DNA of 64,000 bases, taken from assembly GCF_014297595.2 (NCBI RefSeq), contig NZ_CP060414.2, forward strand, positions 930,001 through 994,000, given 5' to 3'. Within the stretch, counting starts at the first letter, position 1. Each line of letters opens with the position of its first letter. Source of the stretch: Neisseria musculi. GTDB lineage: Bacteria; Pseudomonadota; Gammaproteobacteria; Burkholderiales; Neisseriaceae. Both the position numbers and the translations under genes were made by a program. This document shows, piece by piece, positions 1,189-62,171 of this stretch. Below the pieces are notes generated by a model that saw only the letters and a program-made list of their open reading frames with translations, ran no database searches and was not told the DNA's origin.

Positions 1189-1461
1189 ATGATTAAAACG
1201 TTAAATACAACTGAGATCCAAAATGTATCAGGTGGTTGGGTTGCCAATGCCATAGGTGGAATTGTCGGATCTTATAGAGCAGGATACGGCTATCTTGCAG
1301 GAGGAGGAAAGGATTCAAATAGATTTCTTGGAGCCGTGGCATTGGGAGGTGTTGGTGGATTATTCAGCCCAGTAAACAGAATACGTTCTGCAGCTTTAAC
1401 GGCAGGTGGCGCGTTTACGACCAGCGCAGTAGGCACAAGAATTGGAAGTCCATATTTTTAA
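1189..1461 (+). CDS. Class II-type bacteriocin precursor with double-glycine leader
   Basis: A 90-aa peptide begins MIKTLNTTEIQNVSGG, a textbook double-glycine leader (hydrophobic positions, Glu near -8, GG at -2/-1), so a C39-peptidase ABC exporter would cut after residue 16. The mature 74 residues are rich in glycine, with GxxxG-like patterns (GGIVG, AGYGYLAGGG, GAVALGGVGG) and small hydrophobic stretches, as in pore-forming class II bacteriocins and microcins. There are no cysteines. The start has a strong site (AGGAGA, 9 bp upstream). The gene lies in AT-rich DNA unlike its neighbours, a sign of transfer. No exporter gene is present in the window, so export must rely on a transporter elsewhere. 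The next gene begins 2 nt downstream and is a likely immunity protein. Confidence 0.82.
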   Translation: MIKTLNTTEIQNVSGGWVANAIGGIVGSYRAGYGYLAGGGKDSNRFLGAVALGGVGGLFSPVNRIRSAALTAGGAFTTSAVGTRIGSPYF

Positions 1462-1463
1462 AA

Positions 1464-1640
1464 ATGAAAATATGGGCAAGATATGTTTCGCCAATACTGT
1501 GTATAGCTATATCCACAGCCGTTATAACACTGGGAATAAAATATCTTTTTCCCAATAAATATATGTTTTATTGGCAAATTTCTATCAGTATGTTCGTAAC
1601 AGGGATACTGCTGCGCTGGTTTAATCGAACTGAACGTTGA
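1464..1640 (+). CDS. Putative bacteriocin immunity protein, 58 aa, two membrane segments
   Basis: A complete ORF (ATG to TGA) starts 2 nt after the bacteriocin stop, so the two are probably translationally coupled. The 58-aa product begins MKIWARYVSP and shows two hydrophobic segments, about residues 8-27 and 33-52, separated by a short NK/Y turn, and ends in a basic tail (RWFNRTER). Small membrane proteins with two or three helices encoded directly after a double-glycine bacteriocin are typically immunity proteins (as for colicin V). Function is inferred from position and topology only; I recognise no family. Its 3' end overlaps a degenerate reading on the other strand. Confidence 0.6.
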   Translation: MKIWARYVSPILCIAISTAVITLGIKYLFPNKYMFYWQISISMFVTGILLRWFNRTER

Positions 1641-1940: not shown

Positions 1941-4511
<2,571 letters not shown>

Positions 4512-38709: not shown

Positions 38710-40545
38710 GTGTCTGCAACCTTTGATCTGGATATTTTTTTGAAAAACCTGCCCAACCTGCCGGGCGTATACCGTATGCTCGATAAAAACGCCCGGGTGC
38801 TTTATGTGGGCAAAGCCGTCAATCTGAAACGGCGCGTTTCGGGCTATTTTCAAAAAAGCGGCCATTCGCCGCGCATTACGCTGATGGTGAAGCAAGTTTG
38901 CACCATCGAAACCACCGTTACCCGCTCCGAAGCCGAGGCGCTGATTCTCGAAAATAATTTAATCAAAGCCCTCTCGCCCAAATACAATATTCTGTTCCGC
39001 GACGACAAATCCTACCCCTACCTCATGCTCAGCGGCCACGCCTTCCCGCAGATGGCCTATTACCGCGGCACGCTCAAAAAAACCAACCAATATTTCGGCC
39101 CCTACCCCAACGGTTACGCCGTGCGCGACAGCATACAGGTGTTGCAGAAAGTATTCCGTCTGCGCACCTGTGAAGACAGCGTGTTCGAACACCGCGACCG
39201 CGCCTGCCTGCTTTACCAAATCCGCCGCTGCTCCGGCCCCTGCGCCGGCCACATCAGCCGGGAAGACTATCAGGCCGGCGTGCGCGAAGCCGTAACCTTT
39301 CTCAACGGCAAAACCGGCGAGCTCACCCAAGTTTTGCACCATAAAATGCAGCAGGCTGCCGAACGGCTCGACTTTGAAGAAGCCGCCCGCTACCGCGATC
39401 AGATTCAAGCACTCGGCCTGGTGCAGAGCCGACAGTTTATCGACAGCAAAAACCCCGACAGCCCCAACGATATCGACCTGCTGGCACTGGCCGTGGAGGG
39501 CGGCAGCGTGTGCATCCATTGGGTGAGCATACGCGGCGGGCGGCACGTGGGCGACAAAAGCTTCTTTCCCGATGTGCGCCACGACCCCGAACCCAACGGC
39601 CAAGACTACGCCGAAGCCTTTATCGCACAACATTATTTAGGAAAAAGCAAGCCCGATGTCATCATCAGCAACTTTCCCCTGCCCCAAGTGCTTCAGACGG
39701 CCTTAAACCAAGAACACGGCAGACAAATTCAATTCATCACCAAAACCATAGGAGAGCGCAAAGTGTGGCTGAAAATGGCCGAGCAAAACGCCCGCATCGC
39801 CATCAACCAACACCACCTGCAACACAGCAGCCGGCAAAACCGCACCGAAGCACTCGCGCACATACTCGAAATCGATTCAGACGGCCTACAAAGGCTCGAA
39901 TGCTTCGACATCAGCCACACCCAGGGCGAAGCCACCGTTGCCTCCTGCGTGGTATACGATGAAAACAACATCCAACCCTCCCAATACCGCCGCTACAACA
40001 TCACCACCGCCAAAGCAGGCGACGACTACGCCGCCATGCGCGAAGTGCTCACCCGCCGCTACAGCAAAATGGCCGAAGCCCAAGCCAACGGCGAAAGCGT
40101 CAAATGGCCCGATGCTGTGTTAATCGATGGCGGCAAAGGCCAAATCAACGTAGCAGTAGCAGTGTGGGAAGAATTGGGGCTGACCATTCCGCTGGTCGGC
40201 ATCGCCAAAGGCATTGAACGCAAAGCCGGCCTGGAAGAACTGATTCTGCCCTTTTCCGGCCGCACCTTCCGCCTTCCGCCCCACAGCCCCGCCCTGCATC
40301 TTTTACAGACTGTGCGCGATGAAGCCCACCGCTTCGCCATCACCGGCCACCGCAAAAAACGCGAAAAAGCCCGCATCACCTCCTCATTGAGCGGCATTCC
40401 CGGCATCGGCAGCAAACGCCGCCAAGCCCTGCTCACCCGTTTCGGCGGCCTGCGCGGTATCACCGCCGCCAGCGTAGAAGATCTCGCGCAAGTAGAAGGC
40501 ATCAGCCGCGCACTCGCCGAAAAAATCTACGACAGCCTGCATTAA
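38710..40545 (+). CDS. uvrC: Excinuclease ABC subunit UvrC
   Basis: The 611-aa protein starts at a GTG and has, in order, the GIY-YIG nuclease domain (LPGVYRMLDKNARVLYVGKA), a cysteine-bearing stretch (CLLYQIRRCSGPCAGHI), a UVR motif near residue 210 (interaction with UvrB), the RNase H-like 5' nuclease domain (ECFDISHTQGEATVASCVV, DAVLIDGGKGQ) and C-terminal helix-hairpin-helix repeats (LSGIPGIGSKRRQALLTRF). It makes both incisions in nucleotide excision repair. Transcription may start from the Correia-derived -10 just upstream. A DUS also lies in the leader. Confidence 0.97.
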   Translation: MSATFDLDIFLKNLPNLPGVYRMLDKNARVLYVGKAVNLKRRVSGYFQKSGHSPRITLMVKQVCTIETTVTRSEAEALILENNLIKALSPKYNILFRDDKSYPYLMLSGHAFPQMAYYRGTLKKTNQYFGPYPNGYAVRDSIQVLQKVFRLRTCEDSVFEHRDRACLLYQIRRCSGPCAGHISREDYQAGVREAVTFLNGKTGELTQVLHHKMQQAAERLDFEEAARYRDQIQALGLVQSRQFIDSKNPDSPNDIDLLALAVEGGSVCIHWVSIRGGRHVGDKSFFPDVRHDPEPNGQDYAEAFIAQHYLGKSKPDVIISNFPLPQVLQTALNQEHGRQIQFITKTIGERKVWLKMAEQNARIAINQHHLQHSSRQNRTEALAHILEIDSDGLQRLECFDISHTQGEATVASCVVYDENNIQPSQYRRYNITTAKAGDDYAAMREVLTRRYSKMAEAQANGESVKWPDAVLIDGGKGQINVAVAVWEELGLTIPLVGIAKGIERKAGLEELILPFSGRTFRLPPHSPALHLLQTVRDEAHRFAITGHRKKREKARITSSLSGIPGIGSKRRQALLTRFGGLRGITAASVEDLAQVEGISRALAEKIYDSLH

Positions 40546-61160: not shown

Positions 61161-62171
61161 ATGATCAAAAAACGCGTTTTAACCGGTGTAACCACTACTG
61201 GCATACCGCATTTGGGTAATTATGTCGGCGCTATCCGCCCCGCCATCCGTGCCTCGCAAAGCGAGCAAACCGAATCTTTCTTATTTTTGGCCGATTACCA
61301 CGGCATCATCAAATGCCATGACCCGGTGGCAATTCACGAATCCACCCGGGCTATTGCCGCCACTTGGCTCGCCTGCGGCTTAAACCCGGAGCGCACCACG
61401 TTTTACCGCCAAAGTGATATTCCCGAAATTATGGAATTAAATTGGATACTCACCTGCATCACAGCCAAAGGGTTGATGAACCGCGCTCATGCTTATAAGG
61501 CTGCTTTGCAGGAAAATTTGGAGAAAGGGTTGGAAGATCAAGACCACCAAATCGAGATGGGGCTATACAGTTACCCGATTCTGATGAGCGCAGATATTCT
61601 GATGTTCCGGGCCAACGAAGTGCCGGTGGGACGAGACCAAATCCAACATGTTGAAATGGCGCGCGATATAGCGGGCCGCTTCAATCACCGTTTTCAAGAA
61701 GTGTTCACCCTGCCGGAAGCGAAAATAGATGAAAACGTGGAGCTCTTGGTGGGTTTGGACGGGCGCAAAATGAGCAAAAGTTACGGTAACACCATTGCGC
61801 TGTGGGAGAACGATAAAAAAATCCAGAAATCGGTGAATAAAATCCTTACCAACCTTAAAGAGCCGGGCGAACCGAAACAGCCGTCTGAAAGCCCGTTATT
61901 TGAGATTTACAAAGCCTTTGCCACACCTGAAGAAACTGCGGAGTTCATCCATATGTTGGCTGAAGGCTTGGCTTGGGGGGAGGCGAAAAAACTGCTGACA
62001 GAGAAAATCAATGCCGAACTGGCCGAACCGCGCGAACGCTATGCTGAGCTTACTACCGATCCCGCGCAGATTGAGGCCGTTTTGCAGGAAGGAGCGGCCA
62101 AAGCCCGCCGAGAAGCCCGAGTGCTGCTCGACAAAGTGCGCGATGCAGTGGGGATACGTGCACTAAAGTAG
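61161..62171 (+). CDS. trpS: Tryptophanyl-tRNA synthetase
   Basis: A 336-aa class I synthetase with the HIGH-like PHLGNY (16-21), the substrate-pocket region [20 protein letters not shown] and the KMSKS loop at 203-207. It charges tRNA-Trp. Slightly shorter N-terminus than some. Monocistronic; IS1016-type debris follows its stop. Confidence 0.97.

Follow-up and report, generated by a model that had tools for sequence, protein, structure and literature searches.

A candidate double-glycine bacteriocin cassette with a putative immunity gene upstream of clpB in Neisseria musculi

Two small adjacent genes in the window, i.e., the whole stretch of 64,000 nucleotides that was analysed, probably represent a Neisseria cassette of the class II (double-glycine) bacteriocin type, which would be horizontally mobile and consist of a toxin exported in trans and an immunity gene. 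A bacteriocin with an immunity gene had already been proposed in a reading of the sequence alone. That proposal is supported by the pairing of both genes in 7/7 cases, by a partner that is kept without its toxin in the genome G025, by purifying selection, and by the presence of a C39 exporter, from which we infer the bacteriocin function. The relevant features are as follows:

1175 to 1180, + strand: Shine-Dalgarno sequence AGGAGA, 8 nt 5' of the toxin ATG (sequence)
1189 to 1236, + strand: 16-aa double-glycine leader MIKTLNTTEIQNVSGG (ORF list, near-match to TIGR03949, leader pattern versus shuffles)
1237 to 1458, + strand: Gly-rich cationic core of 74 aa, putative mature bacteriocin (ORF list, composition, dN/dS)
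1464 to 1640, + strand: 58-aa two-helix membrane protein, putative immunity protein, here called immA (ORF list, homologues, AlphaFold, hydropathy)
1548 to 1574, + strand: loop motif FPxKDMFYW between the two helices (alignment A3)
1744 to 1775, + strand: 14-bp hairpin followed by UUUU, in which two copies of the 12-mer AGGTCGTCTGAA are inverted to each other; putatively a terminator as well as a DNA-uptake sequence (sequence, folding)
1941 to 4511, + strand: clpB, located downstream of the pair and used to define the insertion site (ORF list; site compared in 31 genomes)

The toxin gene encodes 90 aa (1189 to 1461, + strand, with the stop codon at 1459 to 1461, in the ORF list of the window), and the earlier description of a double-glycine peptide of this length with a Gly-rich core of 74 aa was right to the base. 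Double-glycine leaders share a well-known consensus, and the toxin leader agrees with it at positions -12 (L), -8 (E), -7 (I) and -4 (V) in addition to the GG, as is characteristic of class II double-glycine bacteriocins. The window contains 2217 start-to-stop frames with lengths of 30-130 aa, and the strict leader pattern is found in only two of them, the toxin and a 52-aa frame on the minus strand at 40542, which is judged to match by chance; block-shuffled windows contained a mean of 0.07 matches (30 shuffles). The core has a Gly content of 23% and a computed pI of 10.5, and its dN/dS is 0.06-0.19 in comparisons of the window with three relatives, which are rough values because dS is above 1. 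A chance pair of ORFs was ruled out by the leader statistics, the conservation, and a neutral simulation.

Neither the toxin nor the 58-aa protein exceeds the cut-off of any curated family in Pfam and NCBIfam. TIGR03949 (lactobin A/cerein 7B) aligns with residues 2-33 of the toxin (E 3e-4) and, with 20.5 bits at a cut-off of 21.5, falls just short; the Pfam model PF10439 (Bacteriocin_IIc) gives 10.5 bits at a cut-off of 27.1. A PDB sequence search with the toxin profile yielded three matches with a best E of 0.27, the AlphaFold model of the toxin has a pLDDT of 48 and is too poor for use, and a promoter scan found no sigma-70-like promoter upstream of the gene.

The partner gene starts 2 nt after the toxin ORF on the same strand. 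As the sequence-only reading had it, the 58-aa product has two membrane segments: hydrophobic peaks lie at residues 9-25 and 34-50, and AlphaFold places helices at 2-28 and 34-57 (mean pLDDT 71, pTM 0.36), so that the protein is predicted to form a two-helix membrane hairpin. A fold search of this model against the PDB gave four matches with a best E of 6.8. Two assignments were rejected, namely, SecY, whose 18.3 bits at a cut-off of 253.6 represent generic helix similarity, and a role in anti-phage defence, for which PADLOC had no match. Between the window and G025 the partner has a dN of 0.15 and a dS of 0.53 (dN/dS about 0.28), and only 0.06% of 20,000 runs of a neutral simulation over 48 codons were as identical without a stop (P = 0.0006). 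At the level of the two sequences, this shows purifying selection on the partner frame.

The pairing of both genes was analyzed in the family set of 83 genomes, which were searched with profiles of toxin and partner. Seven intact toxins were counted, i.e., those of the window, G014 (two), G024 (two), G032 and G048, and by synteny and co-occurrence a small membrane gene directly follows all seven, with gaps of 1-19 nt and, in G048, 112 nt. The earlier reading had asked whether the 58-aa protein always follows the toxin. This is the case for six of the seven, which have the 58-aa protein or homologues, while the seventh toxin belongs to a diverged subtype and has an unrelated partner. This toxin, subtype B in G024, shares 46% identity with that of the window, and its partner is a 69-aa two-helix protein without detectable relation to the 58-aa family (HHalign probability 0.3%, one sequence versus A3). 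Toxin subtype and partner thus change together. The partner profile matches in 6/83 genomes, and the same six carry a toxin homologue or remnant; any match to the toxin profile is found in 8/83, and the two genomes without a partner (G002, G021) match weakly. Further, more remote peptide hits of this search have E values from 1e-4 to 5e-7.

Toxins without a following small membrane gene and broken 58-aa frames in relatives had been named as observations that would speak against the proposal. None of the seven intact toxins lacks such a gene, and the 58-aa frame is open beside the toxin gene in G025, G014 (two copies), G024, G032 and G048. The exceptions to an open partner frame are a lone 5'-truncated relic in G024, which has no toxin beside it, and a disturbed subtype-B partner in G032, where the subtype-B toxin contains two stops. 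Two degraded toxin copies have no recognised partner, namely, an additional fragment of 27 codons in G032 and a second, truncated homologue in the genome of the window at 1635.7 kb (L017:7710-8752), and the only match of the 58-aa protein in this genome is the window copy. The truncated copy at 1635.7 kb is followed by a gene for a 216-aa IS1595-type transposase. In G025 the toxin is internally deleted and only 48 aa remain, but the partner of 55 aa is intact, as expected of an immunity gene.

When subtype B is excluded, identities among the double-glycine types are 67-79% for toxins and 37-48% for partners; higher values were obtained for G014a versus G032 (98% for both proteins) and for the partners of the window and G025 (78%). 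In comparison with G048, the toxins are 42-47% and the partners 21-29% identical. At E 1e-6 the toxin profile matched in 3/399 sampled genomes of the order, two of which belong to the genus, and a scan of a collection of genome contigs yielded two loci in N. weixii and one in Lautropia. The database proteins P0003 and P0005 are identical to the toxins of G024 and G014.

The pair had been described as lying in an AT-rich island, and the GC content is indeed 44% in the toxin gene, 35% in the 58-aa gene and 19% in the 247 nt upstream, compared to 52% for the window. In G025, G032 and G014 the cassette lies between the divergent genes trpS and clpB, and in the window it lies just before clpB. A match to clpB was found in 44 genomes of the genus, and the upstream 1500 nt could be read for 31 of them. 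The cassette is present at 4/31 of these sites. At a further 15/31, trpS faces clpB at a distance of about 260-406 nt, and queries with the toxin, the partner and small membrane genes had no match in these gaps; neither the cassette nor trpS was found within 1500 nt of clpB at the remaining 12/31. Five other cassettes with intact toxins sit elsewhere, one each in G014 and G032, two in G024, and that of G048, which was assigned by its neighbours alone.

In the window, trpS is found at 61161-62171, 59 kb from the cassette and in the same orientation as clpB. This distance and orientation indicate that the neighbourhood has been rearranged, and one end of the rearrangement apparently lies at the cassette. 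On the other side, a 310-aa fragment on the minus strand (9-941) abuts the AT-rich border of the cassette; it matches part of phrog_5143, a family of 2204 positions and unknown function. The protein of 828 aa encoded next to this fragment (L015:12392-14878) has a phage MuF-C domain. By these sequence matches, a prophage remnant adjoins the cassette. A plasmid or phage origin of the pair itself was dropped, because the toxin had no match in plasmids, the partner had none in phages, and the toxin profile had none in viral contigs.

The hairpin between both genes and clpB has a folding energy of -21.9 kcal/mol (z -6) and is absent from the listing of a consensus terminator scan. Variants of the DNA-uptake sequence are known as named dialects. 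The variant in the hairpin, AGGTCGTCTGAA, has only 11 copies in the genome, compared to 53 copies of AGGCCGTCTGAA in the window alone, and this rarity suggests that the cassette may have entered by transformation from a species with the AGGTCGTCTGAA dialect; the alternative is paired mutation.

The pair had also been noted to have no exporter nearby and to depend on one elsewhere, and such a candidate was found. The pair is located at 0.931 Mb, and the genome (2.93 Mb) has only two C39 matches, at 1.775 and 2.401 Mb. The first is a C39-ABC protein of 720 aa, 0.84 Mb from the pair, which adjoins a 447-aa HlyD protein and lies 3.7 kb from an outer-membrane efflux protein (TolC-type). The exporter and adaptor that characterize class II double-glycine bacteriocins are thus present in the genome, whereas the exporter is not in the operon of the pair, unlike in the Mcb type. 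The second match is a lone C39 peptidase of 222 aa at 2.40 Mb, the only one of its kind, which lies beside a Sec-type peptide and not beside the pair; in the nap type, the lone peptidase would adjoin the peptides. Six peptides with strict double-glycine leaders precede the C39-ABC locus (L016, G000:C1:1768000-1784000, minus strand), and some of them are followed by small membrane ORFs, as seen by eye. It is possible that this locus is a bank of further bacteriocin and immunity genes.

Full-length C39-ABC exporters were found in 12/46 genomes of the genus, including G019 with one stop and leaving out the partial copies of G018 and G007. They are present in 4/5 genomes with a double-glycine pair, G025 with its deleted toxin included, versus 8/41 others (one-sided P 0.013). 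When the window exporter was used as query, stop codons were included in the matches of G025 and G032; the open frames comprise 715, 736 and 703 aa, and therefore the stops are taken to lie at the ends of the matches. G014 contains two pairs but only a lone C39 peptidase and no detectable C39-ABC exporter (the genome is 85% complete).

The core is also found behind a second kind of leader. In G048, which belongs to another genus of the Neisseriaceae, a core that is 46% identical over 65 aa is part of a 151-aa Sec-type precursor. Downstream of this precursor come a homologue of the 58-aa partner, a protein that matches FapF weakly (20 bits, cut-off 700), and a lone C39 peptidase with FapD as best NCBIfam match (102 bits versus 330). 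The metagenomic protein P0006 has a core that is 74% identical to that of the window, while its front half shares 44% identity with the front half of the Sec-type peptide that the genome of the window encodes at 2.40 Mb. In a Lautropia MAG, a core that is 53% identical over 62 aa stands behind a 77-aa front, and a second gene 1.0 kb downstream has a front that is 93.5% identical but another core; a gene for a lone C39 peptidase follows. An ORF of 97 aa comes after the first of these cores. Leader and core shuffling is thus visible at this locus (L039, 5833-7638), where two neighbouring peptide genes have near-identical fronts and unrelated cores. All three Sec-type forms combine a Sec-type signal peptide, judged by eye, with a degenerate [ED]T[QE]G pro-leader. 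The Nap/Fap-like locus at 2.40 Mb (L018, G000:C1:2394000-2407000) encodes a Sec-type peptide with a degenerate EG leader, the lone C39 peptidase (best match FapD) and small membrane ORFs, with an IS1595-type transposase gene downstream.

The combinations in G048, P0006 and Lautropia indicate that cores and front ends recombine. We slightly favour the view that the core switches its export route, C39-ABC leader versus Sec-type, by a swap of the front end, and that immunity follows the core rather than the route; the Sec-type precursor of G048 keeps the same immunity family.

A mode of action can be proposed from the parts that are present. The 2-nt gap suggests that the toxin precursor and the 58-aa protein are probably translated from one message. 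The C39 domain of the exporter encoded 0.84 Mb away would cut the leader after the GG, and the core of 74 aa would leave the cell through HlyD and the TolC-type channel. In analogy to colicin V, the Gly-rich, cationic core would kill close relatives, probably at the inner membrane. The 58-aa hairpin would reside in the inner membrane of the producer, where, by the positive-inside rule, the conserved loop FPxKDMFYW is probably periplasmic, and it would block the toxin or the toxin's target. Cleavage, secretion, target, membrane orientation and protection are steps that we infer.

An alternative to which we assign a small but not negligible probability is that the peptide acts in autolysis or signalling, like the gonococcal Naps, and that the membrane gene tempers self-lysis. 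The double-glycine peptides NapA-C of N. gonorrhoeae have been reported to mediate autolysis, without detectable antibacterial activity in that account, and deletion of napI succeeded only in the absence of the peptides (PMC11798529). The authors of NeMeSys also weigh pheromones for N. meningitidis (PMC2784325). Because of the Naps, the term bacteriocin is used here as an interpretation. However, the cassette is sporadic (partner in 6/83 family genomes) and degraded in several cases, has alternative partner families and can keep its partner without the toxin, which is the pattern of a competition toxin rather than of a conserved life-cycle function. In addition, mature Naps have 16-36 aa (PMC11798529), compared to 74 aa for the core.

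It is unlikely that the window copy is a decaying, inactive relic of a correctly assigned family, although both of its genes are substituted at otherwise conserved positions. The toxin has R30 where 9/11 other toxin rows of the alignment have G, and S43 where 11/11 have P, and the loop of the partner reads FPNKYMFYW, with Y33 where 7/7 other rows in alignment A3 have D. Furthermore, the DNA at the 5' end of the partner, read by eye, contains a 1-nt indel relative to G025, and clear degradation is seen in further copies of the genus, namely, one in G025, two in G032, and the second copy in the genome of the window. On the other hand, both frames are open, the partner has a dN/dS of about 0.28 versus G025, a full-length exporter is present, and P0001, a database protein from other Neisseria, is 92% identical to the window toxin; it also has R64, but agrees with the other toxins in G30 and P43. 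Because of the substitutions at conserved positions, the window copy may be drifting.

That the second gene encodes another active peptide or an accessory protein, either for export or of a holin-like kind, in the manner of two-peptide bacteriocins or of the small membrane protein NapH of the nap island, which was proposed to be holin-like (PMC11798529), is highly improbable, as the 58-aa protein has two hydrophobic segments and no leader, persists in G025 despite the toxin deletion, and goes with the toxin core and not with the export leader, G048 having another leader and the same partner family.

Bacteriocin cassettes of the colicin V/Mcb kind are already known. New in this analysis are the cassettes at the upstream sites of clpB (4/31) and the presence of the core behind Sec-type precursors, in one genome together with the partner. 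The 58-aa gene had been suspected to be short enough to be missed by annotation, a view that we share, as the partner family has no model above cut-off in Pfam, NCBIfam, PHROGs or PADLOC. The cassette represents a compact, testable toxin-immunity family of lesser-known Neisseria species with a putative immunity protein that those models do not recognise. The reuse of the clpB site, immunity genes that outlive their toxins, and two kinds of leader make it possible to study, as a natural experiment, the movement of bacteriocins between secretion systems and the maintenance of resistance without production.

Colicin V and the class II microcins resemble the cassette in the double-glycine leader and the Gly-rich hydrophobic core of similar size, and likewise in export by C39-ABC, HlyD and TolC and in a small membrane immunity protein. 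In contrast, the pair described here has no match above a curated family cut-off and no dedicated operon. For the Mcb system of Moraxella catarrhalis (mcbABCI), protection by the immunity gene that follows the bacteriocin gene has been shown by experiment (PMC2761928). In both cases a double-glycine bacteriocin gene directly precedes a short immunity gene, known or putative, and a CvaB-like ABC exporter with an HlyD-type adaptor is present, but all four mcb genes form one operon (PMC2761928), whereas the pair in the window is isolated, with its candidate exporter at a distance of 0.84 Mb. McbI has 74 aa and four predicted helices (PMC2761928), compared to 58 aa and two helices here.

In N. meningitidis 8013, type I secretion units contain a C39-ABC protein with an adaptor, several small, glycine-rich double-glycine peptides and a TolC-like protein (PMC2784325), and this machinery is like that of the exporter locus. 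The meningococcal peptides are described as part of the secretion units, while the pair is remote from its candidate exporter, and the term immunity is absent from the main text of that paper (PMC2784325). The nap island, found in N. gonorrhoeae as well as in N. meningitidis, is likewise a small, AT-rich, horizontally acquired double-glycine island with a putative immunity gene, but its C39 peptidase, NapP, is a lone one, and its outer-membrane protein NapF is a homologue of FapF (PMC11798529), whereas no C39 gene adjoins the pair in the window. Since the Naps have been reported to function in autolysis rather than as weapons (PMC11798529), the cassette offers a comparison for these gonococcal peptides.
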